A stretch of 64,000 nt of DNA from Burkholderia seminalis DSM 23518 (GTDB taxonomy: Bacteria > Pseudomonadota > Gammaproteobacteria > Burkholderiales > Burkholderiaceae): the NCBI RefSeq assembly GCF_902832885.1, contig NZ_CADFDK010000002.1, forward strand, positions 124,001-188,000, written 5' to 3'. The stretch's first letter is position 1. Each line of letters begins with the position of its first letter. The notes beneath the pieces were generated by a model, which did not search any database, had not been told where the DNA came from, and worked only from the letters and a program-made list of their open reading frames with translations. Of the stretch, positions 3,677-60,840 are shown in pieces. Both the position numbers and the translations under genes were made by a program.

Positions 3677-3721
3677 AGCATATCGACGGGGCAGGCCGTC
3701 GCCTATCGGACTGGACTGATT
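3677..3721 (-). promoter_or_regulatory. Candidate activator-dependent promoter toward bclACB
   Basis: On the minus strand the box AATCAGTCCAGTCCGATA (3704-3721) is centred 30.5 bp from the -10-like hexamer TATGCT (3682-3677), giving a predicted start near 3670. This is one of a dozen sites in the window with the same geometry. If real, the lectin operon has a roughly 480-base leader, so a nearer promoter may also exist. Confidence 0.45.
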
Positions 3722-3770
3722 TTGCGCCCGCACTGAGTGCCGGCAAAAACCGCGAATCCCGAGCGCCCGG

Positions 3771-3800
3771 TTGACAGCCCCGGTCGCCCTGTGATCTGAT
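3771..3800 (+). promoter_or_regulatory. Promoter of the leu leader/leuA unit
   Basis: A perfect -35 hexamer TTGACA (3771-3776) is followed after 18 bases by TCTGAT (3795-3800) as a -10. The predicted start falls at about 3807-3808, that is, on the A of the leader-peptide ATG, so the transcript would be leaderless. Confidence 0.6.
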
Positions 3801-3807
3801 TCCGGCC

Positions 3808-3903
3808 ATGCAAGCCGCCCAGTCCCTCTTCTCGCTACGACTACTCGCCCGTTTCTCCGGGCTGGGTCTACGGCTGCGCGCTTTCCGTCTGCTTCTGTCC
3901 TGA
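3808..3903 (+). CDS. leu leader peptide (attenuation control of leuA)
   Basis: A 31-codon open frame beginning MQAAQSLFSLRLLARFSG and ending in a run of three Leu before Ser and TGA. Ten of 31 codons are Leu, and the choice is abnormal for this GC-rich genome: three CTA and one CTT are used. This is the signature of a leader peptide whose ribosome stalls when charged leucyl-tRNA is scarce. It ends 239 bases before leuA, with a terminator-like hairpin between them. There is no Shine-Dalgarno sequence; with the promoter at 3771-3800 the mRNA would start at the ATG itself. Too short for standard gene calling. The leader role is inferred from composition, position and the downstream gene. Confidence 0.85.
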   Translation: MQAAQSLFSLRLLARFSGLGLRLRAFRLLLS

Positions 3904-3933
3904 AGCGCCAGATTTTCCCCGTATCACCGACCT

Positions 3934-3972
3934 GGCCCCGGTTGTCGACCGGCGCCTGAGTTCGTCTTTTTT
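3934..3972 (+). terminator. Candidate attenuator hairpin between leu leader and leuA
   Basis: GGCCCCGGT (3934-3942) can pair with ACCGGCGCC (3948-3956), eight pairs with one mismatch and a five-base loop, followed ten bases later by CTTTTTT (3966-3972). The T-run is a little far from the stem, so a variant fold may be the true terminator. Competing antiterminator pairings were not resolved by eye. Confidence 0.5.
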
Positions 3973-4142
3973 CCGTATCGCTCCGCTCCGTCCCGGTCGC
4001 TCAACCGCCAAGGCCGTCGTTCGCCGTACCGCTTTGCCGTTGTGCCGTTTCATCGCTGTCACCGCTGCGCGCGCAGCCGGCCACACCCGCCGAGGGCCGC
4101 CGCGACGCGGTTTCCCGACATACCGACCGAGGACCGAACATC

Positions 4143-5855: not shown

Positions 5856-5989
5856 GTCGAGCGGTGATGGGTGCGCCGGTGTGACGCAGGCCTGACAACC
5901 CTGACAGGCGATGACTTCACATAACGAGCGTATCGTGCAAGCGGCGCGCGGGTCCGTTTTATCGCGCCCATCACCACGAGGAATGTGTC

Positions 5990-6750: not shown

Positions 6751-7005
6751 GGACGCGCATTCGCGTCGACGAGTTTCGGTGAGCGGACAGGTAACGGCAC
6801 GTACGCGCTCAGGGACGTGCTTACCGATGAAAGCGTGATCGTGCCGGCAAGACGACGTTTTCCGGGACCCGGTCATCAATCAGGGCATCCCGCGCGTTGA
6901 CCGTCGATGAAATGACAGTTGCGCCGCAATCCGATCAAGCCCAAACCTACCAACGCTGAGCGCGCCCATCGCGCCCGGCCGCCCACGTTTTCCTGGTGGT
7001 GCGGC
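6751..7005. other. Intergenic stretch without a recognised gene
   Basis: Nothing convincing is seen here; the frames that run through it belong to shadows of the neighbouring glycosidase gene. It ends at the promoter box at 7006. Confidence 0.5.
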
Positions 7006-7048
7006 TAAGACCGGTCCGATTGCCCACATGCGCGACACAGGCGATGCT
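7006..7048 (+). promoter_or_regulatory. Candidate activator-dependent promoter of the glycosidase unit
   Basis: The box TAAGACCGGTCCGATT (7006-7021) is centred 30.5 bp before the -10-like GATGCT (7043-7048). The predicted start is near 7055, upstream of an 18-codon frame (7073) and the glycosidase (7189). Confidence 0.5.
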
Positions 7049-7072
7049 GTCGGGATTTGAGGGAATCCTTGC

Positions 7073-7129
7073 ATGGGTCTGCTGATCATCGCGATATGCG
7101 TCACCGTCGCCATATTCTTCGTATTGTGA
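7073..7129 (+). CDS. Possible 18-residue hydrophobic membrane peptide
   Basis: ATG 7073 follows TGAGGGA nine bases upstream and encodes MGLLIIAICVTVAIFFVL, a single short transmembrane-like helix. It lies between the predicted start near 7055 and the glycosidase 59 bases downstream, so it would be the first product of that transcript. It could be a membrane microprotein or a translated leader. The only evidence is the ribosome site, composition and position. Confidence 0.4.
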   Translation: MGLLIIAICVTVAIFFVL

Positions 7130-7188
7130 CCGGCGCCGATCGACGCGGCTCGTGCGCGTTCCATGACAGAAGGGGGGCCTTGTCCGCG

Positions 7189-18365: not shown

Positions 18366-18739
18366 GTTTCTCTTCCCTTCCAACCTGATCCGCTAGGCGC
18401 GATGGGGCGCCGTCTCGTCTGCCCGGTCACGGGACGCTGCTCGGCGGGCCAACTGCCGACGTATCCGGAGAGGAAGACGAGTCTAGGTGCCGTCTTGTCC
18501 CGAAACCATGGGACATGTACGAAAAATCGAGCTGTTCGTGACCGGGAATCACCGGCGCGCGCCCGATGTAAAGCGGTTTTCGCCCATGGCGTCTGATCGA
18601 TGCGGAAGGTGATCGACGATAAATCGATACGCACTCCGTACAAAAAACATCGATTCGAGAACGAAAAAACGACGACGCCAATCGCAACGAAATTCGCATT
18701 ACTTGCCGGGTGACGGCGTGTTAGCCATCCAGCGCAGCC
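18366..18739 (-). other. Long untranslated leader region of the exopolysaccharide operon
   Basis: About 370 bases between the predicted start near 18733 and the first gene hold no convincing frame. Seen here are T-rich runs on the minus strand (18662-18667 and 18642-18647), an imperfect GAAGACGAGTCTAG box at 18474-18486 about 115 bases upstream of the first start codon, and a TGTCCC/GGGACA inverted repeat (18497-18515). No ops/JUMPstart GGCGGTAG word was found. It may carry post-transcriptional control. Confidence 0.4.
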
Positions 18740-18782
18740 ATTGTGTCGAATGGGCGGGGTGCAGGGAATCAGACGCGTCTTA
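18740..18782 (-). promoter_or_regulatory. Candidate activator-dependent promoter of the exopolysaccharide operon
   Basis: On the minus strand TAAGACGCGTCTGATT (18782-18767) is centred 30.5 bp from CACAAT (18745-18740). The predicted start is about 18733. The box is nearly identical to that of the convergent glycosidase gene (TAAGACCGGTCCGATT), suggesting joint control of the locus. Confidence 0.55.
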
Positions 18783-18908
18783 GCTGTCTGTCAACGATTG
18801 TGAAAGAAGAATTGGATGGGCCGATGGGCGAGTCGCTTGACGCCGCTTCGGAATGGCAGCCGACGGTGTGGACAAGGCGGCCACGCGCGACCGATCGGAC
18901 GCGTCCCG

Positions 18909-21534: not shown

Positions 21535-21628
21535 ACTTTAGGCATGCCGTTTCGGCAACTGAATCGGACCAGTCCTAATCTGCATCGCGTTGATGGATTT
21601 CCGCGCCGCGCGTGTAGGCCCAGTCCTA
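21535..21628 (-). promoter_or_regulatory. Two-box promoter of the TPR-glycosyltransferase gene
   Basis: On the minus strand box 1, TTAGGACTGGTCCGATT (21578-21562), is centred 30.5 bp from TAAAGT (21540-21535). Box 2, TAGGACTGGGCCTACAC (21628-21612), lies exactly 51 bp further upstream. The 1596-aa adhesin promoter (45742-45836) has the same boxes with the same 51-bp spacing. Confidence 0.6.
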
Positions 21629-21649: not shown

Positions 21650-21694
21650 AATCGGACTCGTCTGACAGAGATTCGCGTCGCGCATCCCTTTAAT
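21650..21694 (+). promoter_or_regulatory. Candidate activator-dependent promoter of the 21749/GT25 unit
   Basis: AATCGGACTCGTCTGACA (21650-21667) is centred 30.5 bp before TTTAAT (21689-21694), a five-of-six match to the consensus -10. The predicted start is about 21701, 48 bases before the next gene. Confidence 0.6.
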
Positions 21695-22879: not shown

Positions 22880-23022
22880 AATAGGACCCGGCTGATTGCG
22901 CGGACATCGTCCGAACTTCGACAATGCAAACGTCGGGCGGTCGCATGGTGTGCGCCCGACACCTCGTATCCGAAGCCCCGCTTCGTTGGACGCGCTGCCC
23001 GTTCGCCGGGCGGCGCATTTTT
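22880..23022 (+). ncRNA. Candidate small RNA 1 with box promoter and intrinsic terminator
   Basis: The box AATAGGACCCGGCTGATT (22880-22897) is centred 31.5 bp before GACAAT (22920-22925), so transcription would start near 22932. A GC hairpin (22992-23016, ten pairs with one G-T) followed by ATTTTTC ends the transcript, about 90 bases long. The 5' part can fold GTCGGGCG (22932-22939) with CGCCCGAC (22953-22960). No frame is present. It lies after the GT25 stop and more than 370 bases before the next gene. Confidence 0.6.
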
Positions 23023-24308: not shown

Positions 24309-24668
24309 ATGTCATTTCGATGCGTGACCGGACGGTCGCCGCGTCTGCTTTGGGGGATCGATGGCGCGTGGCGCGCGTGGACTGGAGGCGGCGGATTCAA
24401 GCGACGGATTGGAGTCGATCGGATGCGCCACCGATGGCATGGCCGAGGATGCCGCCACGACAGGAGAAGAATCAGCCTGGTCCGATTGGTTGTGACGATC
24501 GTTCACGTTAAATTGAACGAGTGTGGTGCCGGAGCCGCTTCGGCGTCGGCCGCTGGGCCCGGCCGTCGTCATGCTATGTATTCGATAGCACTACTCCTAA
24601 CGCTGCCTCATGCGAGCGCCGAGGCGCTTCCGGCCGCCACACACTCCTTCAAGCCCGCCCGATGGCCG
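24309..24668. other. Convergent intergenic region with one promoter-type box
   Basis: Between the parvulin gene (plus) and the XRE gene (minus). It contains AATCAGCCTGGTCCGATT (24470-24487) centred 30.5 bp before TAAATT (24509-24514), implying a plus-strand start near 24521. What this would transcribe is unclear: no frame or intrinsic terminator follows, and it would run antisense to the XRE/SymE genes. Confidence 0.45.
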
Positions 24669-25653: not shown

Positions 25654-28635
25654 TCAGCCTGCCGCCCGCCGCATGAGAATCTCGTTCGCGCTCCGTCGAT
25701 AGCGCTCGAACTCCCGCGCGAACGCGGCGGCATCGCCCGCCAGCGCCAGCGCTTCCATCGACGCACAGAGCCCCGAAATCTCCCGCTCGCCGATCATCGC
25801 GAACGCGCCCCGCATGCTGTGAATCTCCGAGCGCGCGACCTTCAGGTCGCCGTCCTGCAGGGCCCGGGCGATGGTCGCGCTCGAGCGTCGCGTTGCATCG
25901 GCGAGCACCGTATGCAGGTCTTTCGGCAGCGGGCCGGACGCACGCGCCGGTGCAGGCGGATAGACCGGCCGACGCCACGTGCCCGTGTACCTCGCGATCG
26001 CCTGTTCGAGCGATTTCAGCGACGTCGGCTTCGTGACGATCTCGTCGATGCCCGCTTCCCACGCCAGGCGCAACTCGTCCGGTTCGGCATGCGCGGTCAC
26101 CGCCAGGATCGGCTGCACCCGCCCGCGCTCGCGCAGCACGCGTGCGAACGCGTATCCGTCGAGGCCCGGCATGTTGAGATCGGTGAGCACGACCGGATAG
26201 TCGTGACGGTCCACCAGATCGAGCGCCTCGGCGACGTTCGATGCGATATCGGCCTGATAGCCGAGGACGTCCAGCTGATCGTGGACGAGCGAACGGTTGA
26301 CCGGGTTGTCGTCGACGAACAGCACGCGCACGTTCGGCGCATCCTCGCCGGACGGCGCATGTGCGGCGCCGGGCTGACTGTCGAGCGGCAGCGGCAACGT
26401 GACGACGAACGTCGATCCCACGCCCGGCACGCTGTTCGCGTCGATGCGCCCGCCCATCGACTCCGCGAGCTTGTAGCTCAGCGCGAGGCCGATGCCCGTT
26501 CCGCCGAAACGACGCGCGATCGATTCGTCGGCCTGCGCGAACGGCTCGAACACGTGCGCAAGCTGGTCGGCCGTCATGCCGATGCCCGAATCGCTGACGC
26601 GGATCGTCACGGGCGTCGCATCGCCCGGCGGCGCCGATACCGACAGCGCGACCGTGCCGCGATCGGTGAACTTGATCGCGTTGCTGACCAGGTTCACGAC
26701 GATCTGCCGCACCCGCATCGGATCGCCGAGATACGTGCGGGTCGCCGCGGGATCGACGTCGATACGCAGCGCGACGCCCTTCGCGCCGGCCACCGGCTCG
26801 AACAGGTCCGCCACGTCGCGCATCAGCTCGTCGATCCCGAACCCCGTCGCTTCGAGCGTCATCCGGTCGGCTTCGATCTTCGTCATGTCGAGCACGTTGT
26901 TCAGCATGTCGAGCAACATGCGCGCGGCGGACGTGACCGCATGCAGGCGCGGCTTCTGGCGGCTCGGGTCGGGCGCCTTGTCGAGCAGTTCGAGATTGCC
27001 GAGCATCGCGTTCAGCGGCGTGCGGATCTCGTGGCTGATCGTGGCGAGGAACGTCGACTTCGCGCGGTTCGCGCTGTCGAGTGCGCGTTCGGCGTCGGCG
27101 CGCGTCGTGATGTCGGAGAAGCTGAACAGCAGCGCTTCCTTGCCCTTGTAGCGGACGCGCACGAAGTTGACGAGCAGGTCGCGCGCGCGGCCGTCGTCGA
27201 GCGTCACGGGCAGTTCGACGTCGAGCTGCACCGGCGACGCGTCCGCGCGCTCGCGGTAGCGAGCCAGCAGCCGCTCGTGCAGCGGCGGATCGCCGGCCTC
27301 GCGGTCGTACAGCTCGAGCATCCGGTTGCGCAGCAGCACCTGCTGCGTATCGGGCGACACGAGGCCGATGCCGAACGGCGCGGTGGCGACGATCGTGCGG
27401 CTCATCCGCTCGCTTTCGAACACGCGGCGCGAACGACGGAACAGCGGCGCGAACACCCGCAGGTCGAACGCGATCACGAGCGTCCACAGCACGATGAGGA
27501 TGGTCGCGGTCGTGCCGAACTCGCGCAGCATCGTCGACCAGATCGCAAAGGCGATCGTGCGCCACGAGTACGCATAGACGATCGCGTAGCCGGTGTCCGA
27601 AATCCGGTCGGTGATCGTGAACATGCCGTGACGGTAACTTTCGTCGAAATGCGCGAGGCCGCGCCGCCAGGTGCCTTCGGCCAGCGCTTGTTTCATCAGG
27701 GCCGCGCCGTCCTCCGCGTCGCCGGTGCGATCGGCATCCAGCAGCACGCGGCCGTTTTCGTCGATCAACATCGCGACGGCATCGCCGGGTGCATGCTTCA
27801 TCCGCTCGGCGATCACGTCGACGTCGAAGTCGCTCACGAAGGTCATGAAATGCTGCTGGCCGTCGAATGCGGGTTCGACGAGACGGAAGACCGTCTTGCC
27901 GGTCAGCGGATCGATCGCCGGCGCCTGCCAGGCGATCCGGCGCGACAGGCGCCAGTAGCGCGCGATGGCCGGATCGGACCAGTCGGCCGCGTCGAACGCG
28001 AGGTGTTCGATCAGCGTAGGCGTGTCGGGCACGCCGATGCGTGCGAGCAGGTCGGGATACGGCATCGACGGCGGCGGCGTGATCGCGATCACGTTGCGGT
28101 CGGGGCTGTATGCGTAACCGCGTACCGCGCGCCCGGTCTGGCGTTCGGCGGCCGCGACCGAGATCGTCTGGCGCTCCATCAGCTGCACGTAGCGATCCGT
28201 TTCGCGCTCGGCGAGCGCCTTGGGCGACGCGGCCACGAAGATCTCGCTCACGCCGGGCATCGGGGCGAGCAGGACGTGCCCGTCCCTGCGCAGCGCGTCG
28301 GAGGCTTCGCGCGCATGCGGCGGATGGCCGTTCCACAGCAGCTCGGCATTGATCACCGCGCGGCGCATCGACGCCTGTTTCGCGTCCATTTCGAGTTGCA
28401 CGAGCGCCTTGTGCGTCGCGAACAGGTCGCGCCGCTCGGCGATGTAGTCGCGCACCGAGCCGACGAGCAGGATGCCTGCCGCGATCAGGATCACGAGCGA
28501 CAGCACGACCGCGCCGCCGTACAGCGTGAAGCGCTGATACCGGTTCAGCAGGCTCAGGTCGCGCGTGTCGTCGTCGATCGATGCGAACGGCGCGCTGGCG
28601 TCCGTGTGGGACGCGAAGAGGTGGCGAATGGGCAT
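25654..28635 (-). CDS. Hybrid sensor histidine kinase with receiver and HPt domains (BvgS/RcsC-like)
   Basis: A 993-residue inner-membrane phosphorelay kinase. Transmembrane helix 1 lies at about 37-58 and helix 2 at about 370-392, enclosing a ~310-residue periplasmic sensor domain. A PAS-like segment (about 430-515) precedes HisKA with phospho-acceptor His535 ([16 protein letters not shown]). HATPase_c has the N-box NLVSNAIKFTD, DSGIGM and GGTGIGLALSYKL. The receiver has Asp819 (VVLTDLNMPGLDGY) and the terminal HPt has His939 (EIHSMRGAFAMIG). It lies divergently from the 2986-aa adhesin gene and is the counterpart of the kinase at 45925. The likely phosphate acceptors are the RcsB-like regulators at 39156 and 40007, an inference from context. 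Confidence 0.93.
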   Translation of the reverse strand: MPIRHLFASHTDASAPFASIDDDTRDLSLLNRYQRFTLYGGAVVLSLVILIAAGILLVGSVRDYIAERRDLFATHKALVQLEMDAKQASMRRAVINAELLWNGHPPHAREASDALRRDGHVLLAPMPGVSEIFVAASPKALAERETDRYVQLMERQTISVAAAERQTGRAVRGYAYSPDRNVIAITPPPSMPYPDLLARIGVPDTPTLIEHLAFDAADWSDPAIARYWRLSRRIAWQAPAIDPLTGKTVFRLVEPAFDGQQHFMTFVSDFDVDVIAERMKHAPGDAVAMLIDENGRVLLDADRTGDAEDGAALMKQALAEGTWRRGLAHFDESYRHGMFTITDRISDTGYAIVYAYSWRTIAFAIWSTMLREFGTTATILIVLWTLVIAFDLRVFAPLFRRSRRVFESERMSRTIVATAPFGIGLVSPDTQQVLLRNRMLELYDREAGDPPLHERLLARYRERADASPVQLDVELPVTLDDGRARDLLVNFVRVRYKGKEALLFSFSDITTRADAERALDSANRAKSTFLATISHEIRTPLNAMLGNLELLDKAPDPSRQKPRLHAVTSAARMLLDMLNNVLDMTKIEADRMTLEATGFGIDELMRDVADLFEPVAGAKGVALRIDVDPAATRTYLGDPMRVRQIVVNLVSNAIKFTDRGTVALSVSAPPGDATPVTIRVSDSGIGMTADQLAHVFEPFAQADESIARRFGGTGIGLALSYKLAESMGGRIDANSVPGVGSTFVVTLPLPLDSQPGAAHAPSGEDAPNVRVLFVDDNPVNRSLVHDQLDVLGYQADIASNVAEALDLVDRHDYPVVLTDLNMPGLDGYAFARVLRERGRVQPILAVTAHAEPDELRLAWEAGIDEIVTKPTSLKSLEQAIARYTGTWRRPVYPPAPARASGPLPKDLHTVLADATRRSSATIARALQDGDLKVARSEIHSMRGAFAMIGEREISGLCASMEALALAGDAAAFAREFERYRRSANEILMRRAAG

Positions 28636-29086
28636 GAGGCGAAGACTGGTGAATCAATGCGCGAATCGGGGACGCGCCGCGGCGAGGCCGGAACGCGGAC
28701 GATCTCCACGAGCCGATTGAAGGCAGCGCGATGCGCCGCCGGCTCGGGGAACGGGAAAATTATCGGGATAGTGGACGAGGCTGTATGTAGGGCAGTCCGA
28801 AACACTCGCGCGCGAAGGATAGGACCAGTCCTATTCGGGCAATCGGCCGCGCGTTGCGTATATACGTCCTGCGACGCAACCGTGTCAAACGGAATCGTTC
28901 AAGAGAACGGCGTGTCGCGTTGCGTCTGGCACGGCCGATTGTCAAGCAACGTCATGTTAGGACTAGGCCTACGAAATAAGTCATGTCACGTCCGGCCGTC
29001 TGATTATCGAAACGACGGGCGATCAATACATTGCCAATGGTGGACGAGGAGCGTCCTTCTCCCTTTTTTCTACTGAGGCAAACAAC
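28636..29086. other. Divergent promoter region between kinase 1 and adhesin 1
   Basis: Box ATAGGACCAGTCCTAT (28819-28834) is symmetric except for its two central bases and is followed 32.5 bp from its centre by TATATA (28859-28864) in the direction of the adhesin. A second box, TTAGGACTAGGCCTAC (28957-28972), lies 138 bp downstream, 122 bp before the adhesin start, without a -10 at the usual distance. A minus-strand GATAAT (28764-28759) may serve the kinase. A T-rich CCCTTTTTTC precedes the adhesin ribosome site. Confidence 0.5.
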
Positions 29087-39155: not shown

Positions 39156-39875
39156 ATGGGAAGCTATCTGATACGCGTGGTACTGGCCGACGACCACCCG
39201 GCGATGCTGGTCGGCGTCGAGCACGGGCTGTCGTCGGTGCCGACGATCCGGTTGACCGGCAAGGCAGTCAATTCGACCGAGCTGATCCGGCTCGTCGAGG
39301 CCGGCGTATGCGACGTCGTGGTGTCCGACTATGCGATGCCGGGCAGCGCGCACGGCGACGGCATCACGCTGTTCTCCTATCTCCAGCGCAATCACCCGGC
39401 CGTCAAGCTGGTCGTGCTGACCATGCTCGACAATCCGGCCGTGGTCGGCGCGCTGACGCGGCTCGGCATCGAGTGCATCGTCAGCAAGTCCGACACGATC
39501 GATCATCTGATTCCCGCGATTCACGCGGCCGCGACGGGCGGCACCTATTACTCGCCGTCGGTGGAGAAGGTGGTGCGCACGCTCACGTCGCATTCGAGCG
39601 CGCGGGCCGCCGACCAGAAGCGCGATCTCAGCGACCGCGAACTCGAAGTGGTGCGGCTCTATGCGTCGGGCCTCACGGTCAACGAGATCGCCGACAAGCT
39701 GAGCCGCAGCAAGAAAACGATCAGTACGCAGAAGGCGCGCGCGATGGAAAAGCTCGGGATCGACAAGGACATCGACCTGCTGCGCTACGCGATCGAGCAC
39801 GGGATCGTCGCCGCGTCGGCCAGCGAAGGGCGCGGCGGCGAAACCAGGGAGGAGGGCGGCGTCGATCCGGCCTGA
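39156..39875 (+). CDS. RcsB-like response regulator 1 (receiver + LuxR-type HTH)
   Basis: A 239-residue regulator. The receiver (about 5-125) has the DD pair (LADDHPAM), phospho-acceptor Asp58 (VVVSDYAMPG), Thr in VVLTML and Lys in IVSKSD. The DNA-binding domain (about 150-215) reads LSDRELEVVRLYASGLTVNE then IADKLSRSKKTISTQKARAM. Both domains resemble enterobacterial RcsB, including HGDGITLFSYLQ after the acceptor and EKLGIDKDIDLL after the HTH. No obvious ribosome site precedes ATG 39156. It is probably activated by the HPt domains of one or both hybrid kinases (inference). A strong terminator follows. Confidence 0.93.
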   Translation: MGSYLIRVVLADDHPAMLVGVEHGLSSVPTIRLTGKAVNSTELIRLVEAGVCDVVVSDYAMPGSAHGDGITLFSYLQRNHPAVKLVVLTMLDNPAVVGALTRLGIECIVSKSDTIDHLIPAIHAAATGGTYYSPSVEKVVRTLTSHSSARAADQKRDLSDRELEVVRLYASGLTVNEIADKLSRSKKTISTQKARAMEKLGIDKDIDLLRYAIEHGIVAASASEGRGGETREEGGVDPA

Positions 39876-40006: not shown

Positions 40007-40699
40007 TTACCCGTTTGCGCCGTCGCCGCGTGCGGATGTCGAATAACCGTGGTCGGTCACGAGCCCGCACGAAATCGCGTAACGCACCAGGTCGACGTCG
40101 CGCTCGATGCCGAGCTTCTGCATGGCCGAACTCTTCTGCGTACTGATGGTTTTCTTGCTGCGGCTCAGCTTGTCGGCGATTTCGTTGACCGACAGCCCCG
40201 ACGCGAACAGGCGGATGACTTCCACCTCGCGAGCCGACAGTGCCGGCGGCCTGCCGCTGACGCTGCCCGTGTTGCGCATGATCCGGTCCATCGACGGCGA
40301 CAGGTAGCGGCCGTTCGTATAGGCCGCGTGAATCGCCATCGTCAGATGATTCGGCATGTCCGACTTGCTGACGATGCACGCGATGCCGATGTCGATCAGC
40401 GCGCGCAGCGCGACCGCGTTCTCCATCATCGTCATCACGACGATCTTCAGGCCGGGAAAGCGCTTCAGGATGCTCGTGAACATCGTGAGGCCGTCGCCGT
40501 GCTCGACGCCCGGCATCGCGTAGTCCGACACGAGTACGTCGCACGGATGCTGCGCGAGCGCGTCCATCAGTTCCGTCGAATTGTGCGCGGTCGCGACGAC
40601 CGACACCGTATTCGTCGCGGACAATTCGTAGCGCGCGCCGATGACGACCGCCGGATGGTCGTCGGCGATCACGATGCGGATGGGGAAGGTTCTGTTCAT
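40007..40699 (-). CDS. RcsB-like response regulator 2
   Basis: A 230-residue paralogue of the regulator at 39156, transcribed toward it. The receiver has IADDHPAV, acceptor Asp59 (VLVSDYAMPGVEHGDGLTMF), Thr in VVMTMM and Lys in IVSKSD. The HTH reads LSAREVEVIRLFASGLSVNE and IADKLSRSKKTISTQKSSAM, identical to regulator 1 across the recognition helix (SRSKKTISTQK), so both should recognise the same or overlapping sites. ATG 40699 is chosen because the family's MNRTFPIRIVIADDHPA opening starts there; the longer upstream frame is not conserved in style. Confidence 0.92.
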   Translation of the reverse strand: MNRTFPIRIVIADDHPAVVIGARYELSATNTVSVVATAHNSTELMDALAQHPCDVLVSDYAMPGVEHGDGLTMFTSILKRFPGLKIVVMTMMENAVALRALIDIGIACIVSKSDMPNHLTMAIHAAYTNGRYLSPSMDRIMRNTGSVSGRPPALSAREVEVIRLFASGLSVNEIADKLSRSKKTISTQKSSAMQKLGIERDVDLVRYAISCGLVTDHGYSTSARGDGANG

Positions 40700-40873
40700 G
40701 TTGAGATTGCGCGTTGCGCCGCGCCATGCGGCGGGTTGCGGTAGGCGTTGTCGAGGCTGGGTGGAAGTCGGCACACGGGCACGGCCGCCGGCGATACCGC
40801 TGGCGGTCGCGATCCCGTCGCACCGACGGCCGGTGGCAACTCGCGGGAATCGCCACTGGCCGTCGGCCGACAA

Positions 40874-45741: not shown

Positions 45742-45836
45742 TTTGTCAGTTCACAAACCGATGGTAGGGATCGGCCTCGTCCTAATCAGTCGTCCAGGGC
45801 TGATTCGAGATAGCGACCGTGTAGGCCCAGTCCTAC
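45742..45836 (-). promoter_or_regulatory. Two-box promoter of adhesin 2
   Basis: On the minus strand the proximal box TTAGGACGAGGCCGAT (45785-45770) is centred 30.5 bp from GACAAA (45747-45742). The distal box GTAGGACTGGGCCTAC (45836-45821) lies 51 bp upstream. The arrangement is superimposable on the TPR-glycosyltransferase promoter at 21535-21628. The predicted start near 45735 leaves just room for the ribosome site. Confidence 0.6.
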
Positions 45837-45924: not shown

Positions 45925-48900
45925 TCAGGCAGTCGGCGCCTGCGTTGCGCGCCGTCGCAGTGCTTCCCGCGCGAGGGCGTCCGCGTCGGCGAGCCGCGCA
46001 TCGAACGACGTCAGGTCGCCGCCGTGCACGATGGCTTGCAGTTCGCCGATCGCGTCGGCCACGGCATGTTCGTGAATCGTCGCGAACGCGCCGCGCAGCG
46101 AGTGCAGTTCGTGACGCAGCGCGGCGATATCGTTGCGTGATGCCGCGTCGTGCATCGCCGCGACCGATTGCGCTCGACTCGTTTCGAGCAACGCGTGCAC
46201 GTCCGGCGGCAGCGGACCTTGCGCGAGATCGACGAGCGTGCGCGCGGCGGGCGCCTGCGCCGCTGCCGTCTGCGCGTAACGCCGCACGGTGCGATCGATC
46301 GTATCGAGCAGCACCGGTTTCACGAGCACGGCGGCGATGCCCGCTTCCGCGCAGCGCGCATGCTCGGCCGCGCTCGCGTGCGCGGTGACGGCGACGACCG
46401 GTAGCCCCGGATATTGGGCACGCAGCACGCGCGCGAGCGTATAGCCGTCCATCCCCGGCATGTTGAGATCGGTCATCACGAGGTCGTAGCGCGTCTCCGC
46501 GCAGCGCCGCAACGCCGCCGCGCCCTCGTCGGCGGCGTCCGCCGCATAGCCGAGCGTGACGAGTTGCCCTTGCAGCAGCGTGCGGTTCACCGGGTGATCG
46601 TCGACGACGAGCACGCGCGCGGCGACGGCCGGCAGCGCGGTATCGTCGGCCCGCGCGGCGTCATGTTCGGCAACCTGCGCATCGGTGGCCGCGCGCAGCG
46701 GCAGCGTGACGACGAACGTGCTGCCCTTGCCGGGTTCGCTCTTCACGTCGACCGTGCCCTGCATCATCTGCGTGAGCTGCTTCGTCAGCGCGAGGCCGAG
46801 CCCGGTGCCGCCGTAACGGCGCGTGATCGACGTGTCGGCCTGCGTAAACGGGCGGAACAGCGCCGCGCGCTGCGCGTCGGTCATGCCGATGCCCGTATCG
46901 CTCACGCCGATCGCGACGGGCGATTCCGGGTTCGTGTCGTCGCGCAGGTAGACCTCGAGCGTGATTTCCCCGTGGTTCGTGAACTTGATCGCGTTGCCGA
47001 CGAGGTTCGCGGCGATCTGCCGGATGCGCGTCGGGTCGCCGACGTAGCGCGACGCGAGCGCATCGTCGACGAACACGTCGAACTGCAGCCCCTTCGCGGC
47101 CGCGAGCGGCTCGAACATCGCGCCGGTCTGCCGGACCGTCTCCGCGAGATCGAACGGGATCGCCTCGATCGTCATCTGGCCGGCTTCGATTTTCGACAGG
47201 TCGAGGATGTCGTTGATCAGGTCGAGCAGCACCGACGACGCGCCCTCGACCGTATGCAGCCGCTCGCGCTGCGAATCGGCGAGCGGCTCGCGGCCGATCA
47301 GCTCGAGGTTGCCGAGGATCGCATTGAGCGGCGTGCGGATCTCGTGGCTCATCGTCGCGAGGAACGCCGATTTGGCGTCGTTCGCGGCGTCGGCGGCGCG
47401 GCGCGCTTCGTCGAGCGTGCGCTCGACGGTCTTTTGCGACGTGATGTCGGAGAAGTTGCACAGCAGCACGTCCATGTCGCGAAAGCGCGTGCGCACCAGA
47501 TTGACGAGCAGGTCGACGGTCTCGCCGGCGGCGGTGGGCAGCGTCACGTGCAGATCGGGTTGCCACGCGGCGGCGGCGGGCGAGCGGTCGAAGCGTGCGA
47601 GCAGCCGCGCCGGCAACGAAGGTTCGCCCGCACGCCGCGCATCGTAGTCGCGCATCGTGTCGTTTTGCAGCAGCACCGCGCCGTCGGCGAGCGACAGCAG
47701 CGCGATACCGGACGGCGCTGCCTCGACGATCGTCCGGTTCAGGTTCTCGCTGTCGATCACGCGGCGCGTGCGCGCGTCGTCGGGTTTCAGCACACGGCGG
47801 TCGAAACGCACGAGCAGCCACCAGACGAGCGCGATCGCAGCCAGCATGACCGCGACGTACCAGCCCGCGCGCAGCCCGATCGTCGCGAGCAGCGAGCGCA
47901 GCGTGAACGCCTGCACGAGCGTCCAGTCGGTTTCGGGAATGGGCTGTCTCAGCGAGAACAGCCCGTCGCCGAACGCGGTGCGCGGCCCGCTGCGATTGGC
48001 TGCCTCGTGCGTAGGCGCGCCGAGGCGTTCGAGTGCGACGCGGGTGGCGTCGTCGTCGGCCGCGATGCCCGTGCGCAGCAGCGTGCGGCCGTGCGCGTCG
48101 GCGACGATCGCGGCGTCGGTCGTGCCGCCCGTCGACAGACGGGTGCGCAACACGTCGACCGGCAGCGTCGACAGGAAGACGGCGCGGGGCGCACGCGCAT
48201 CGTAGACGGCACCGGCGATCCGGAACACGTCGCGGCGCTGTACGGGATCGTAGACGGGCGCATACCATTGGTATTGGCCGGGCGGCGGCGTGTCGATGCC
48301 GGCGGCGACTTTCGCGACGAGCGTCGCTGCATCGGTGGCGGGCGACGCGGTGAGCGGATCGGGCGGGATCGGTTCGGGGATGACGACGGCAAAGCTGTGG
48401 TCGGGGCGATAGGCGTAGCCCGCGATCGCGCGGTCGGCGTCGTGCTTGGCGACGTACGCGCCGACGCGATAGCTCATGTCGCTCGCCATCGCGAGATCGT
48501 GCGCGTAGCGCGCGGCCGGTTGCGCGGGCGACAGGTCGGCCAGCACGAGCGTCGGCGGGAAGGCCGGGCTGCCCTGGATCACGAGCCGGCCGCGGCCGGC
48601 CTGGAGTGCGGCGACGCGCGCCGGATCGGTCGCGCGCATGTTCCATACGGCTTCGTCGTGCGTGACGAGTGTGTCCATGCCCGTCGTGCGCATCTTGAAT
48701 TCGATCTGGACGAGGAACTGGCGCACCGCGAACGTCGTATAGCGCGCCTGGATCGCATCGCGCGCTATCGTGTACAGCATCAGGCCGCTGGCGAGCAGGA
48801 TCGCGACCGTCACGGCCGCGCCGCCGGCATAGAGCAGTGCGCGCTGGCGGCGGCCGACGCGGGTCGGCGCGGCAGACGCGTGCCCGGCGGCGGCGCGGGC

Positions 48901-48960
48901 GTGATCGGGTGTGGCGCGGTGGTCCATCGGGAGCGGGGCGGTCGGCCTGGGTGCCCCCAT
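45925..48960 (-). CDS. Hybrid sensor histidine kinase with receiver and HPt domains, kinase 2
   Basis: A 1011-residue paralogue of the kinase at 25654. Helix 1 lies at about 42-64 and helix 2 at about 378-400 around a large periplasmic domain. HisKA has His539 ([18 protein letters not shown]). HATPase_c has [19 protein letters not shown] and [13 protein letters not shown]. The receiver has Asp831 ([14 protein letters not shown]) and HPt has His953 ([13 protein letters not shown]). Position and neighbours match the B. cenocepacia kinase reported to respond to the fatty-acid signal BDSF, but ligand binding cannot be read here. ATG 48960 is used; ATG 48927 is possible. It lies about 200 bases upstream of adhesin 2 on the same strand. 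Confidence 0.93.
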
Positions 48961-49808: not shown

Positions 49809-49923
49809 GATGTGGACGGCCCAGGCCGGTGTGGCGCGGTGGCGGGATGCATGCGCGATCGGATGAACGGAAGCGGGATCATGGCCGGACGGGTTCCGGG
49901 CAGGGTTCGGCGTGACGCCGTCC

Positions 49924-50052
49924 AAAAAAATTCCCGCCAGGGGAGGCGGGAGAAAGTATCGACTATGGAGCCTGTGCTCCCGGAGGCTCCGGAGGACAGG
50001 CAGGCCGATTGTGTTCGGTTCGGAGTGGGAAGAAAATCAGCCTGGTCTGAAA
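49924..50052 (-). ncRNA. Candidate small RNA 3 (or terminated leader) upstream of the OmpR-like gene
   Basis: On the minus strand a box reading TTTCAGACCAGGCTGATT (50052-50035) is centred 30.5 bp from CACAAT (50013-50008), so the start is near 50001. The transcript of about 78 bases contains TGTCCTCCGG (a 10-base match to candidate 4), a GCCTGT/ACAGGC stem, and ends in CCCGCC/GGCGGG followed by AA and seven T (49930-49924). It lies 115 bases before the OmpR-like start, so it could also be an attenuated leader. Confidence 0.6.
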
Positions 50053-50367
50053 TTGCGCGGGGTCGGCCGCGATCGTGTTCGCGGTGCGACCCGGTGCGGG
50101 CGCCGCCGTGCGAGTGGAGGTGCGAGACGATGTCGTCGACGCGGCACGGCCATTCGCGAATGGTGGCCGGATTTGGGACGGGTCTGACGGCAAACATAAC
50201 GGCATTCGGACCACGGGAAGTGCCAACTTGCCGACAATGAGCGCAATCGATCCGGCGCGCAGGGACGGCACTTTGTCCCATGCGCGCGCTCGTCGTCACC
50301 CTCAACCGCTTCGCTTGCCGCGCGGCGCGACCCGTACCCGTCGCGCATGGCCGCATTACCATCGATC
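50053..50367. other. Region upstream of the FixL-like kinase
   Basis: No gene is supported. A short stretch GCACTTTGTCCCATGC (near 50270-50285) resembles the TTGTCCC..ATGGGACA word before the exopolysaccharide operon, but only as a half match. No clear promoter for the downstream kinase was identified. Confidence 0.35.
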
Positions 50368-51802
50368 ATGAAACCGTCCGTCCGACTCGCCGCCTTGGCT
50401 GCGTGGCTCGCGTTGAGCCTCGCCGGCACCGCGTTGGTCGTCTCGCGCGCCGTCTCCGACGCGTACGACCGCTTCTTCCAGGATTCGAGCATCACGATTC
50501 GCCTGCTCGCGCAGAAAGCCGCGCAGCACGAGGCGATTCTCGCGACGCTCGGCGCGTCGTCGCTCGCTGCGCCGCCCGCGCATATGCTCGACAACCTGCG
50601 CGAACGCATGCCGCAACTCGGCGGGCTCGCGTACTGGCGGCCCGGCGCGGGCTGGCAGACCGATGGCGGGCCGGCGCCCGCCGCGCTGCCGCAGCGGCGG
50701 CCCGGCAAGCCGTTCACGCTGGCATTCGACGGCCCCGCTGCGTACTGGCTCGTCGCCGGGACCGGCTGGGCCGTGCGCGTCGATCCGCGCCGGATGCTGC
50801 AGCCGGGGGACTGGTCCACGACAATCTCGTCGGCGGCGCTGGAATTGCGCGACCGCCGCATCGACCTGCTGTCGCCCGCGCCCGGCGATGCGCAACCGCT
50901 GTGGACGATGCATCTCGAGAAACACCTGCCCGCGCAGCCGCAGGCCTTCGTGCTGCGCACGACGCGCACGCTGACGGCCGCCGACCTGCCGTGGCTGTCG
51001 ATCGCGCTGTGGAACGCGGTGGCCGCGTTGCTCGCGGCCGGTGCGCTCGGCGCATGGCGGCTGCGCGAGGCACGGCGCCGTGCCGATGCACGTGCGCGCC
51101 TCGACCGCTTCGGCCGCCTCGACACCTTCGGCGAAATGGCCGCCGGCCTCGCGCACGAGCTGAACCAGCCGCTGACGGCGATCGTCAGCCACACGCGTGC
51201 GGCCGAACGCATGCTCGACCAGCCGGCCGAGCGCGACAGCGTGCGCCGTGCGTTGCAGACGAGCGTCGCGCAGGCGAAGCGCGCGGCGGCGATCCTGGAG
51301 CGCATGCGCGACGCGGTGACCACCGCGCACGGCGGCGAGCGCCGCACGCTCGATCCCGACGCGATCGTGAATGCGCTGCTGTTCCTGTACCGCGACGACT
51401 GCGCGCGCGAGCACATCGCGCTCGGCTGGCACAACGCGGCGGCGCGCGCGGCCGTTCGCCGAGCCGATCGCGGTCGAGCAGATCCTGCACAACCTGATCC
51501 AGAACGCGCGCGACGCGCTCGCCGGCGCGCGCGCATCGCGCGGCGAGATTCGCATCAGCGGCGCACGCGTCGGCGGGCATTACCGCTTCAGCGTCGTCGA
51601 CAACGGCCCCGGCGTGCCGGAAGACGCGCTGCCGCGCCTGTTCGAACCGTTCTTCACGACGCGTGCACGCGGGCTCGGACTCGGGCTGCCGCTGTGCGAC
51701 ACGCTCGCGCAGCGGCAGGGCGGCACGCTGACGCTGCGCAATCGGCCGTCGGGCGGCGTCGAGGCCGCGCTGCTGTTGCCGCTGGCACGGGAGGCCGGAT
51801 GA
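50368..51802 (+). pseudogene. FixL/DctB-like sensor histidine kinase interrupted by a frameshift
   Basis: The first part (50368 to about 51450) encodes transmembrane helix 1 (about 5-25), an extracytoplasmic region, helix 2 (about 205-225) and HisKA with GEMAAGLAHELNQPLTAIVS (phospho-acceptor His). Thereafter the catalytic domain is found only in the next frame: PIAVEQILHNLIQNARDAL, VVDNGPGVPE and GLGLGLPLCDTLA up to TGA 51802. A single extra base, most likely one G in the GCGCGGCCG stretch at about 51449-51452, explains the shift. It is either a real inactivating mutation or a sequence error. The second half ends in an ATGA overlap with the regulator gene, as in an intact pair. ATG 50368 is used; ATG 50347 is possible. 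Confidence 0.85.
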
Positions 51803-52437
51803 ACGATTCGCGGCATTCGACGCACGACGCATCGGTCGTCGCGATCGTCGACGACGACGAAGCCGTGCGCGACGGGCTCGCGCTGCTGCTGCGCACGGTG
51901 GGTGTCGCGACGCGCCGTTATGCGGACGCATCGGCCTTTCTTGCCGATGCGGATGACGTGGCGCTCGGCTGCGTGCTGCTCGACATCCGGATGCCGGGGA
52001 TGAGCGGCCTCGACGCGCTCGACGCGCTGCGTGCGCGGCGCGACCTGCCGGTGATCGTGATGACGGGCCACGGCAACGTCGACGCGTGCCGGCGCGCGTT
52101 CAAGCGCGGCGCGCTCGATTTCCTGCGCAAGCCGGCGGACGACGACGAGCTGATCGACGCGGTCCAGCAGGCGCTGCGCCGGCAGGCCGCGCGGCGCGGG
52201 CAGGGCGATGCGGACCACGTGCGCGCGGCCCGTGTCGCCACGCTGAGCGCGCGTGAACGCGAGGTGCTGGACGGCATCGTGCGCGGCTGGAGCAACAAGG
52301 CGATCGCGCGCGCGCTCGGGCTGTCGCCGCGCACGGTCGAAACCTATCGCGCGAACGTGTTCGACAAGCTGCAGGTCGCGTCGCTGGTCGAGCTCGTGCG
52401 CGATTACGCGGCGCTCGCGGGCGGGTCGCCTCCGTAG
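51799..52437 (+). CDS. FixJ/TtrR-type response regulator
   Basis: A 212-residue regulator. The receiver (about 12-125) has IVDDDEAV, acceptor Asp62 (VLLDIRMPGMSG), Thr in VIVMTGHG and Lys in FLRKPA. The LuxR-type HTH (about 145-205) reads LSAREREVLDGIVRGWSNKA then IARALGLSPRTVETYRANVF. It is translationally coupled to the kinase by an ATGA overlap. With its cognate kinase frameshifted it may be unphosphorylated or served by another kinase. Its stop codon lies inside a long palindrome that precedes the outer-membrane protein gene. Confidence 0.93.
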   Translation: MNDSRHSTHDASVVAIVDDDEAVRDGLALLLRTVGVATRRYADASAFLADADDVALGCVLLDIRMPGMSGLDALDALRARRDLPVIVMTGHGNVDACRRAFKRGALDFLRKPADDDELIDAVQQALRRQAARRGQGDADHVRAARVATLSAREREVLDGIVRGWSNKAIARALGLSPRTVETYRANVFDKLQVASLVELVRDYAALAGGSPP

Positions 52438-57434: not shown

Positions 57435-57887
57435 ATGGTACCTGTTCGTCAAGCGACCGAGTCCGATCTGGCCTCGATCGAAGCACTGCTTCGAGCCAGC
57501 GGCTTGCCGACCGAGGGCGTCGCCTTGTCTCTGCCGCATTTCGTTGTGGCCGACGCGGCATCCGGCATCGTGGGGTGTGGCGGAATCGAGTTCCACGGAC
57601 GCCATGCGCTCGTGCGTTCGATCGCCGTCGTCGAGCACGCGCGTCGCGCCGGCGTCGGGCGGATGCTGGTGGCCCGCCTGCTCGCGGAATGCCGCGCGCG
57701 GGCCGTCCGGTCGATCGGGTTGCTGACCACGACGGCGGAAGACTACTTCGCCGGGCACGGTTTCGTCCGTATTGCCCGCGAGGATGTGCCCGAGCCGTTG
57801 TTGGCGTCCAGCCAGTTTCAGGGTGTCTGTCCGGGATCGGCCGTCGCGATGCTGATGGTCTGCGACGACAGAATCGGACTCGGCTGA
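57435..57887 (+). CDS. arsN2: GNAT acetyltransferase of the ars operon (ArsN2-type)
   Basis: A 150-residue GNAT protein. The acetyl-CoA loop reads VVEHARRAGVGRMLVARLLA (Q/RxxGxG/A pattern), preceded by LVRSIAV; the C-terminal AEDYFAGHGFVRIAREDVPE and SSQFQGVCPGSAVAMLM are typical of the group annotated ArsN2. It probably acetylates an arsenical or related toxin, by analogy with ArsN1 acting on arsinothricin; the substrate of ArsN2 is less certain. ATG 57435 follows GGGAGTGG. A promoter-type box overlaps its final codons and stop (57872-57889). Confidence 0.85.
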   Translation: MVPVRQATESDLASIEALLRASGLPTEGVALSLPHFVVADAASGIVGCGGIEFHGRHALVRSIAVVEHARRAGVGRMLVARLLAECRARAVRSIGLLTTTAEDYFAGHGFVRIAREDVPEPLLASSQFQGVCPGSAVAMLMVCDDRIGLG

Positions 57888-58004
57888 TTCCCTTCCCGGT
57901 TCACATTCCCGACAATTCGGTTTCTGCGGCCCGGCATACCCCGTGTGCCGGATCATGGAGATATCTCCTCTTCGCGGCCGGTCTTCTCGACTGGCCGCTT
58001 TTTT
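57872..58004 (+). ncRNA. Candidate small RNA 2 or terminated leader of marC
   Basis: The box AATCGGACTCGGCTGATT (57872-57889) is centred 30.5 bp before GACAAT (57911-57916); the start would be near 57923. The ~80-base transcript folds CCGGCATA with TGTGCCGG, has GGAGATATCTCC, then the terminator GCGGCCGGTC/GACTGGCCGC (57974-57998) and six T. MarC begins 33 bases later, so either a free RNA with read-through or an attenuator is possible. Confidence 0.6.
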
Positions 58005-58036
58005 ATTCCCGTTCGTCACCGGAGAGCACGATCGCG

Positions 58037-58708: not shown

Positions 58709-58767
58709 CGAAGAAGGGACTGGCGCCCGTGCCGGTGGTCGCGGAGTCGAGCTGAAGCGGCCCGGTC

Positions 58768-59619
58768 TTATTCCGCCGGTGGCGTGGCCGGGCGTGAATC
58801 GTGCGCCGCGGCACCGGCCGCATCGTCCTTCGGCAACACGCTGCCGCAATGCGGACAACAGCCGGCACGTGCATCGCCCGCGCGCTTGCGCTCGAGCGCC
58901 GACGCGACGAGTTCCGCGCCCATGATCCCCGTCGGAAACGCGATGATCCCGTAGCCGAGCAGGATCGCGCACGACGTGATCAGCCGGCCGAGCGGCGTGA
59001 CGGGCGTGAGATCGCCGTAGCCGGTCGTGCTCATCGTCACCGCCGCCCAGTAGACGCCCACCGGAATGCTCGTGATCCCGTGCTCGGGCCCTTCGACGAG
59101 AAAGATCACCGTGCCGAGAATCACGACGAGCACGAACATCCCGCCGATGAACACGAAGATCTTGCGACGCGCGCGCGCGAGTGCGCGGATCAGCATCTGC
59201 CCTTCCTCGAGATAGATCGACAGCCCGAGAATGCGGAACACGCGCAGCAAGCGCAGCAGCCGCACGTCGATCAGCGCATGCAGGCCGGGGAAGAAGAACG
59301 CGAGATAGGTTGGCAGCACCGACACGAGATCGACGATGCCGAAGAAACTGCGCGCATACGCGGCGGGCCGCTTCGCGGTGAACAGACGCAGCAGGTATTC
59401 GGCCGAAAACAGCAGCGTGAACGCCCATTCGGCCGCGTAGAGCGTGCGGCCGTATTGCGCGTGCAGTTCCTGCACGCTGTCGGCCATCACGACGAGCACG
59501 CTCGCGACGATCAGCGCGAGTACCGCGACGTCGAGCTTGCGGATGAACGACGGACGATGCACGCATTGCCGGACGGCATCGCGTACCGTGTCGAAGGCGG
59601 TCGGATTCAGCGAATTCAT
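58768..59619 (-). CDS. Voltage-gated-like potassium channel protein
   Basis: A 283-residue six-helix channel subunit. S1-S4 occupy about 28-150, with the S4-like helix VRLLRLLRVFRILGLSIYLE carrying five Arg. The pore loop/selectivity filter is TMSTTGYGDLTPV, close to the TVGYGD potassium filter. The C-terminus has a zinc-ribbon-like CCPHCGSVL (about 253-261), an unusual addition. It probably conducts K+ across the inner membrane. A box/-10 pair lies only a few bases before ATG 59619. Convergent with marC. Confidence 0.92.
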   Translation of the reverse strand: MNSLNPTAFDTVRDAVRQCVHRPSFIRKLDVAVLALIVASVLVVMADSVQELHAQYGRTLYAAEWAFTLLFSAEYLLRLFTAKRPAAYARSFFGIVDLVSVLPTYLAFFFPGLHALIDVRLLRLLRVFRILGLSIYLEEGQMLIRALARARRKIFVFIGGMFVLVVILGTVIFLVEGPEHGITSIPVGVYWAAVTMSTTGYGDLTPVTPLGRLITSCAILLGYGIIAFPTGIMGAELVASALERKRAGDARAGCCPHCGSVLPKDDAAGAAAHDSRPATPPAE

Positions 59620-59626
59620 GCGCCCG

Positions 59627-59671
59627 AGTGTACGGACGACGCGCCGCAGGGCCTATCGGACGTGTCTGATT
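59627..59671 (-). promoter_or_regulatory. Candidate activator-dependent promoter of the channel gene
   Basis: On the minus strand AATCAGACACGTCCGATA (59671-59654, extending into the T at 59671) is centred 30.5 bp from TACACT (59632-59627). The predicted start is at about 59620, directly at the ATG (59619), so the channel mRNA may be nearly leaderless. Confidence 0.55.
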
Positions 59672-59703
59672 CCGGTGCCGCCCAACCGGCCGCCCCGCGG
59701 GCG

Positions 59704-60513
59704 TTACTGCCCGAAGCGTTGCGCGATGGCATCCTTCAGCCGCGCGGCGGTCAGCTCGCCCATGTGCGACTCGACGAGTTCGCCTCGCGCGTTGAAGAAC
59801 AAGGTGGTCGGCAGCCCGCGCGAGCCGTACGCATGCATCGCATGCAGCGACGGATCGAGCAGCACGTGATCGAAGCGCAGGCCCTTTTGTTCGAGGAATG
59901 CGCGCACGACCTGCGCATTTTCGCCCTGGTTGAGCATCAGCACCGTGATGCCGGGATGGTCGCGCTGCGCCTGTTCGAGAATCGGCATTTCGCGCTGGCA
60001 CGGCGGGCACCACGTCGCCCACAGGTTCACGACCACCGGCTTGCCGACGAAGCTTGCCGGCAACACGGGCGCGGCATCGAGCGCGCGGAGTTGCAGCGCG
60101 GCCAGCGGCGCGGCGCTCTGCTGCAACGTCGCCAGCGTGCCTTGCGCGATCCCCCACGCACCGAGGCCCGCGACGATGCCGGCCAGCACCGGTCGACGCA
60201 GCGCGGGCAGGCGGCGCAAGCGCCAGCCCGCGAACACCAGGGCGGCCGCAACACCGATACGCCAGTCGAAACCGCCGTCGCCGAGCGCGACGATCGAGCG
60301 CGGCGATGCCGCATAGTCCGGCCACCACTGCGCGACGTAGCCGGCGCGCGCGGCGATCAGCCCGAGCAGCAGCACGTCCAGGATCAGGCTCGAGGCGGTC
60401 TTGTGATGTCCGTCAGGCGGGCGGCGCTGGATGAAACGCGCGACGAGCCACGCCAGCAGCGCGGCGGCGGCGACCGCGACGACGCGAATCGAGAAGGGAC
60501 CGATGCTCAGCAT
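59704..60513 (-). CDS. TlpA-family thiol-disulfide oxidoreductase with N-terminal membrane domain
   Basis: A 269-residue protein. Three to four N-terminal helices (about 1-125: MLSIGPFSIRVVAVAAAALL onward) resemble the Lgt-like membrane segment found fused to TlpA domains. Residues about 135-269 form a periplasmic thioredoxin fold with VVNLWATWCPPCQREMPIL (redox CPPC) and the cis-Pro region GSRGLPTTLFF. It probably keeps cysteines of exported proteins reduced, for instance in cytochrome assembly. ATG 60513 is chosen; ATG 60591 is an alternative. Confidence 0.88.
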   Translation of the reverse strand: MLSIGPFSIRVVAVAAAALLAWLVARFIQRRPPDGHHKTASSLILDVLLLGLIAARAGYVAQWWPDYAASPRSIVALGDGGFDWRIGVAAALVFAGWRLRRLPALRRPVLAGIVAGLGAWGIAQGTLATLQQSAAPLAALQLRALDAAPVLPASFVGKPVVVNLWATWCPPCQREMPILEQAQRDHPGITVLMLNQGENAQVVRAFLEQKGLRFDHVLLDPSLHAMHAYGSRGLPTTLFFNARGELVESHMGELTAARLKDAIAQRFGQ

Positions 60514-60707
60514 GAAAGGGATGGGTGGAGGTGAACGAGCGGGGAAGGAGAAGGGATTGTCCGCCGCGGCGAAGAAACCGTCGACGGTCATGCGGCGTTT
60601 CGACCGGTTGCCGCGCAACGCGGTTCCCTTCGAGAACGTAACGGCGTGTTGCGGATTCTGTGAACGCGCGTGGAGCAGGACCGTGACCGACATTCGGAAG
60701 GGCTGCG
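60514..60707. other. Upstream region of the TlpA-like gene
   Basis: No gene is supported; the TlpA frame extends through it but loses coding character. No clear promoter was identified by eye. Confidence 0.35.
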
Positions 60708-60840
60708 AATCAGACTGGTCTGATGGTCAGCGGAATACCGCTCGTCAACAATACGCATACCGGCGAGATGTGGTGTCCTCCGGTATCCCGAACAGGGATC
60801 TCTCCTTGACGGCCGCTCCTTTTGCGAGCGGCCGCTTTTT
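60708..60840 (+). ncRNA. Candidate small RNA 4 with box promoter and intrinsic terminator
   Basis: AATCAGACTGGTCTGATG (60708-60725) is centred 30.5 bp before AACAAT (60747-60752); the start would be near 60759. The ~80-base RNA pairs ATACCGG (60756-60762) with CCGGTAT, exposes TGTCCTCCGG (an anti-Shine-Dalgarno-like sequence shared with candidate 3), has ATCCC/GGGAT, and ends in GGCCGCTC/GAGCGGCC (60811-60833) with five T. No gene follows on this strand for over 2 kb, which favours a free RNA. Confidence 0.65.

Follow-up and report, generated by a model that had tools for sequence, protein, structure and literature searches.

Which protein reads a palindrome that recurs in front of surface genes of Burkholderia seminalis DSM 23518, and to what effect, is the question raised by the stretch of 64,000 nucleotides studied here (the window; C2:124001-188000 of genome G000, 8 Mb), which was analysed with its flanks (C2:64001-248000). 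The palindrome, an 18-bp dyad or box, stands at a fixed distance upstream of -10-like hexamers. It is very probably an RcsB-type operator, at which RcsB-like response regulators, together with RcsC-like kinases, would activate a local surface regulon. Three such regulators are candidates: RR1 and RR2, encoded next to each other in the window, and RR3, encoded beyond it. This answer draws on the observed sequence and spacing of the box, its recurrence in other genomes, the kinship of the regulators and their co-occurrence with the box, and the match to the rprA promoter of E. coli. It offers a testable rule for a whole Burkholderia surface-gene region (box, 21 nt, -10) and names three likely regulators.

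The box and its distance to the -10

The box was scanned as the consensus AATCRGACNNGTCYGATT (up to 3 mismatches) and in a wider form, AATMRGACNNGTCYKATT. An earlier note on this DNA had listed 12 dyads with -10-like hexamers, and all 12 were found in place, with 30.5 bp from the dyad centre to the hexamer in 11 of them and 31.5 bp at 22888. The mean -10 score over these sites is 4.55 at 30.5 and at most -3.36 at every other offset between 9.5 and 79.5, a contrast that is partly circular because the hexamers had been picked in that note. The enrichment over shuffled sequence that it had anticipated is borne out: AATCRGACNNGTCYGATT is matched 14 times in the window, where 100 shuffles average 0.54, AATMRGACNNGTCYKATT gives 16 boxes against 0.63 per shuffle (60 shuffles), and composites of a box with a -10 at exactly 30.5 bp number 10 against 0.033 per shuffle (60 shuffles).

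Other parts of the earlier description hold in a weaker form. The dyad had been placed almost only between genes; 12 of the 16 boxes are intergenic by the open reading frame (ORF) calls, but the box at 49043 lies inside a gene, without a -10, and that at 58755 runs into the end of the channel gene. The boxes at 21562 and 21613 fall within one ORF call, and reassigning its start to the ATG at 21422 places both outside the gene, while the box at 24470, intergenic by the ORF calls, also lies within a mechanical 317-aa ORF that has no Pfam match. The half nearer the -10 is the better conserved, as claimed, but only slightly (9.95 vs 9.06 bits over 14 sites; 11.07 vs 10.58 bits over 91 sites). At 45777 the dyad stands but GACAAA is doubtful as its -10; a second, overlapping dyad 19 bp away (4 mismatches) sets TACCAT at 30.5 and is retained in G006 and G007. 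The dyad at 28818 was missing from the earlier list. It has no good -10 at 30.5, and neither do three further unlisted dyads (58755, 21613 and 53321) nor the dyads resembling 28818 in G007, G034 and G037.

The spacing recurs in held-out sites. The expected conservation in other Burkholderia was found in the cluster regions of ten other genomes, where 59 of 71 boxes carry a -10 scoring above 2 at 30.5 (best other offset 13/71, median 3.5). In two genomes that carry RR1/RR2 without an RR3 ortholog, and for which every genome site of up to 2 mismatches was taken in, the fractions are 12/18 (G041) and 13/20 (G060). Both controls are near background: 6 of 32 sites of G000 outside the cluster have a -10 at 30.5 (best other offset 7; this control covers 31 of 51 places with up to 3 mismatches), and among the 14 genomes that lack the candidate regulators 12 of 59 box-like sites do (best other offset 13).

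The regulon is local and not genome-wide. Of only 12 sites with up to 2 mismatches in the whole genome, 9 lie within C2:114244-184725 (~71 kb), and the consensus read backwards has no whole-genome match at the same threshold. The sole perfect dyad, C2:114244(-), lies ~10 kb outside the window and has CACAAT at exactly 30.5; C2:115327(+), also outside, has TACACT at exactly 30.5.

The rprA match and the RcsB-like regulators

The nearest counterpart of the box is the rprA promoter of E. coli K-12 (NC_000913.3), which reads AATGAGACGAATCTGATC, 21 nt, TACTAT, with 3 mismatches to the box consensus and 42.5 bp from the box centre to the annotated start; its frame and geometry are those of the Burkholderia boxes. 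Its dyad is reported to be the RcsB site (Majdalani 2002). The box lies just upstream of the place of the -35, at a fixed distance to the -10, in both cases, and a small RNA is driven at rprA, as is predicted at several boxes. The earlier note had proposed that many promoters have an activator site at about -43 and lack a -35 hexamer, and the held-out sites, the other genomes and rprA all argue for this. The differences are that the Burkholderia boxes prefer GAC-N2-GTC and have many targets in one 71-kb stretch. This likeness suggests that the rprA promoter layout is common to gamma- and beta-proteobacteria. The consensus has the frame TnRGA-N4-TCYnA, which is shared by rprA, by the RcsB half-sites TTAGGAA/TCTAAGA (PMC5829831) and by the RcsAB motif TAAGAATATTCCTA (PMC12388358). 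Transcription of rprA is reported to be by RcsB homodimers (PMC7241856). The earlier statement that no regulon with this box is described stands in part: the kind of box is known, but for the regulon itself no description is known, as far as the open-access literature searched shows.

The candidate regulators are the closest relatives of RcsB in the genome. A search with E. coli RcsB scored RR2 at 150.8, RR1 at 144.6 and RR3 at 132.8 bits, followed by 91.4, and the NCBIfam RcsB model scored the three at 153.8-170 bits (next family 84.6-105.1); RcsB is both their best family and their best PDB relative. Likewise, RcsC is the top NCBIfam family for four hybrid kinases (317.3-402.7 bits), two of which flank RR3, as rcsD and rcsC flank rcsB in E. 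coli. The RcsD-ABL domain PF16359 has no match in the whole genome, with a positive control in E. coli, and this is therefore not the enterobacterial Rcs system (RcsC-RcsD-RcsB), even though its members are the nearest relatives of the Burkholderia proteins. As the scores also stay below the cut-offs for RcsB and RcsC, the system is not classed as an Rcs phosphorelay; it also differs in having three RcsB-like regulators against one.

Across 65 genomes of the genus, RR1 and RR2 occur together in 14, and a match to RR3 of at least 78% identity in 48. Genomes with RR1/RR2 and RR3 average 15.9 boxes (n=11), and those with RR1/RR2 but not RR3 average 17.7 (n=3). Where RR3 is the sole one of these the mean is 8.4 (n=37, range 3-21), and where all are absent it is 4.2 (n=14, range 1-7). 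Because the lectin, M23 peptidase, MarC and channel core promoters are found in RR3-only genomes and also in G007, which has RR1/RR2 without an RR3 ortholog, the specificity is suggested to be shared between RR1/RR2 and RR3.

In the mechanism proposed, one of the RcsB-like response regulators (RR1, RR2 or RR3, which is linked) would bind the dyad as a dimer, centred at -42.5, and would replace the missing -35 contact, recruiting sigma-70 polymerase to the -10 that stands 21 nt past the box, as at rprA. The regulators would be phosphorylated by RcsC-like hybrid kinases of the region, and the output would be a local surface regulon comprising, besides several RNAs, lectins, exopolysaccharide, an adhesin, an ion channel and small membrane proteins. 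Binding, activation and phosphorelay, as well as the functions of the RNAs and the pairing of regulators with sites, are inferences from sequence.

Several observations weigh against this assignment. The co-occurrence of boxes and regulators is confounded by ancestry, the genomes counted as having neither regulator set still carry relatives at 39-57% identity, and some genomes with RR3 have as few as 3 sites. The RcsB scores are far below the NCBIfam cut-off of 235 bits and the RcsC scores far below that of 920 bits, with RcsC only narrowly ahead of TorS in two kinases. Among the E. coli RcsB targets compared besides rprA, osmC is a weak fit (5 mismatches) and bdm and osmB do not fit. The adhesin sites 28818 and 45777 are poor fits to the activator layout. 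The base-contacting residues of RcsB are kept in part, by eye on the alignment: RR1 keeps K180 and has T184, RR3 keeps S184 and has Q180, and RR2 reads like RR1 at both positions (residue positions from PMC5829831).

The same box might instead be read by RcsB-like regulators partly as a repressor or dual site. Of 7 genomes scanned, 5 have a related dyad before the kinase-RR3 operon, and in 4 of these it abuts GATAAT directly, instead of lying 21 nt upstream, so that an autorepression site is possible there; 28818 and 45777 also fall outside the activator geometry. Against this, most boxes stand a constant 21 nt before a weak -10, which is how the activator site of rprA is laid out, and the dual reading is unlikely. 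Somewhat less likely still is another reader encoded in the region, namely the OmpR-type BCAM0228-like protein or the FixJ-like hybrid. Both are encoded in the cluster, the BCAM0228-like one behind a box, but a BCAM0228-like match above 60% identity is confined to the 14 RR1/RR2 genomes, and composites occur without it in G039, G043, G003, G004, G002 and G019, in whose fetched regions no FixJ-like match was found either. The BCAM0228-like protein was rejected as sole reader on the same distribution.

It is most improbable that the boxes arose by chance, or that they descend from a single duplicated promoter and have no regulatory role. A UCUCC stretch common to three of the RNAs, which may be related, would fit duplication. 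Against it, the shuffles place the box far above chance, and within five promoter families the -10s are 94%, box cores 89%, spacers 65% and upstream DNA 40% identical (box and -10 values inflated by site choice), with spacer sequences that differ between families. Activation from an RcsB-type operator is preferred to all three.

Target genes and RNAs

The targets claimed earlier were recovered, with lectins, polysaccharide genes, a glycosyltransferase, an adhesin, a channel and four terminator-ended RNAs in the window, and further target families are the TPR protein, MarC and the M23 peptidase. Boxes, RNAs and candidate regulators are listed below.

Table 1. Boxes, dyads, RNAs and candidate regulatory genes (window coordinates unless indicated; distances in bp from dyad centre to -10).
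Feature	Position	Strand	Remarks
RcsB-type box	3704..3721	-	TATGCT at 30.5; upstream of lectin operon 983-3235
Hairpin RNA SF, conserved	3601..3670	-	Start of predicted lectin transcript; fold z -4.09 (3593-3669)
Box	7004..7021	+	GATGCT at 30.5; upstream of 18-aa ORF and gene at 7057
Box	18767..18784	-	CACAAT at 30.5; upstream of polysaccharide genes (WcaJ-type 16977-18383 and on)
Box	21562..21579	-	TAAAGT at 30.5; upstream of TPR protein gene 19845-21422
Box	21650..21667	+	TTTAAT at 30.5; upstream of 104-aa protein (21749) and GT25 gene
Box	22880..22897	+	GACAAT at 31.5 (31.5 also in G006, G007); predicted driver of RNA SE
Terminator-ended RNA SE	22932..23022	+	z -2.78; 4 sequences, 27 pairs, 4 changed on both sides
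Box	24470..24487	+	TAAATT at 30.5; 8 genomes; transcript conserved, fold not significant (z 0.19)
Dyad	28818..28835	.	Between BCAM0218-like kinase and adhesin gene at 29087; without good -10 at 30.5
Dyad	45769..45786	-	Before adhesin gene 40934-45724; -10 uncertain (GACAAA, or TACCAT with overlapping dyad)
Box	50035..50052	-	CACAAT at 30.5; predicted driver of RNA SD; upstream of BCAM0228-like gene
Terminator-ended RNA SD	49924..50001	-	z -3.97 (49924-50007); relatives found
Box	57872..57889	+	GACAAT at 30.5; predicted driver of RNA SA; upstream of MarC gene 58037
Terminator-ended RNA SA	57923..58004	+	z -4.86 (57917-58004); relatives found
Box	59654..59671	-	TACACT at 30.5; ion channel gene 58768-59619, probably leaderless
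Box	60708..60725	+	AACAAT at 30.5; predicted driver of RNA SB
Terminator-ended RNA SB	60759..60840	+	z -3.03 (60753-60838); relatives found
RR1, RcsB-like response regulator	39156..39875	+	BCAM0221-like by gene order
RR2, RcsB-like response regulator	40007..40873	-	BCAM0222-like by gene order; true start probably downstream of 40873
RR3, RcsB-like response regulator	G000:C2:231529-232182		Outside window; ~47 kb past last box
RcsC-like hybrid kinase	25654..28635	-	BCAM0218-like by gene order
RcsC-like hybrid kinase	45925..48960	-	BCAM0227-like by gene order
OmpR-type BCAM0228-like protein	49020-49925		In cluster
FixJ-like hybrid	50347-52437		In cluster

The lectin promoter recurs in 7 other genomes, at ~460-630 bp before PA-IIL lectin genes, and the hairpin RNA SF is conserved in 10 sequences (25 pairs, 3 changed on both sides). 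At the channel promoter the start codon begins at the 8th base past the -10 in 7 of 7 family members (6 ATG, 1 GTG), and the channel mRNA is therefore probably leaderless. Terminator-ended RNAs follow boxes at four places in the window and one outside, with fold z values of -2.78 to -4.86, and the RNA set of the regulon is most likely these five together with the hairpin RNA. UCUCC-type stretches are present in RNAs SA, SB and SC, which may be related; an alignment of the three gave no convincing single family.

Two readings of the RNAs were set aside. A GacA/Rsm-type reading (raw GGA counts of 0 to 7 in 194 nt) was dropped for the RcsB match. The double-hairpin RNAs of RF02278 are similar in being short, with two hairpins and CU-rich stretches (PMC5688073), but this toxic small RNA has no Rfam match at the gathering score in the window or L006, and membership was rejected.

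The 18-aa ORF (7072-7128, MGLLIIAICVTVAIFFVL) that follows the box promoter at 7012 has an identical peptide in G034. A separate repeat, ACGCTGCCNYATGCGA, occurs in four exact copies in the window, at 3499(-), 23148, 24600 and 60931, where 0.99 would be expected at up to 2 mismatches and four were reached in 1 of 100 shuffles; every copy is in the sense direction and has a box promoter ~90-230 bp upstream of it.

Related systems and related dyads

Parts of the region have counterparts in described systems. The trimeric autotransporter adhesin (TAA) cluster of B. cenocepacia (BCAM0218-BCAM0228) matches 25654-49925 in gene types and order, and its kinases and regulators have been proposed to control the adhesins (PMC3404963); that paper's main text does not contain 'RcsB', and in what was available of it the box, the Rcs kinship and a wider regulon are not described. 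The main text of a transcription start site paper (PMC4603805) does not contain 'BCAM02'. Another RcsB-like regulator of surface adhesion (cupD) belongs to PvrSR/RcsCB of Pseudomonas aeruginosa PA14, where GAA is required in the site; the difference is that this site is mapped from the start codon, and small RNAs or a multi-target cluster are not mentioned in the parts of the paper available (PMC3842833).

The box regulators may also be connected with quorum sensing. BCAM0227 is reported as a receptor and sensor kinase for the Burkholderia diffusible signal factor, BDSF (PMC12838280), and a BCAM0227-like kinase, so named by gene order, is one of the RcsC-like kinases of the region. The lectin operon bclACB is strongly BDSF-dependent in strain H111, and the interplay of two quorum-sensing systems there was said to be still to be elucidated (PMC3502180); a box promoter lies upstream of the lectin genes here and in the 7 other genomes. 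The link of BDSF through BCAM0227 is a proposal, in which the kinase is identified from gene order and published descriptions. A fuller scheme is speculative and rather doubtful: the targets of BDSF, reached via BCAM0227 and the RcsB-like BCAM0221/BCAM0222, would be lectin, adhesin and polysaccharide genes together with small RNAs that affect translation via UCUCC, in an Rcs-like beta-proteobacterial phosphorelay with the rprA layout.

Some identifications of the regulators and kinases were considered besides. BCAM0227/0228 as RqpSR proved wrong, RqpSR being described as BCAL0535/0534. A 606-aa hybrid kinase (L008:13161-14981; C2:221161-222981) lies a few kb from RR3; 606 aa is the length of AtsR, a candidate identity for this kinase. 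BCAM0288 of the lxa locus was likewise considered as a candidate identity for RR3. BiofilmReg of B. contaminans is another system, because its regulator is reported as orthologous to BCAL1443 and CreB-like (PMC5192318).

Related dyads are also found elsewhere. The dyad AATCRGAYNNRTCYGATCGAC, at L133 (G000:C5:3598), L140, L157 and L181, has CACAAT or AATAAT 30.5 bp away; it is found in genomes without the three regulators as well, and the ORF behind the G000 copy has no Pfam match. Another, AATCAGTCRYGACTGATT (G000:C1:693526 and many genomes), is present in most genomes among the matches listed, with or without the regulators, and is perhaps the site of another factor. Repeated AATCAGACAACTCTTATT dyads ~1.4 to 6.6 kb apart, at G020:C2:227841-237435 and G039:C3:1143850-1153501, form a cluster of a variant box elsewhere in two genomes.

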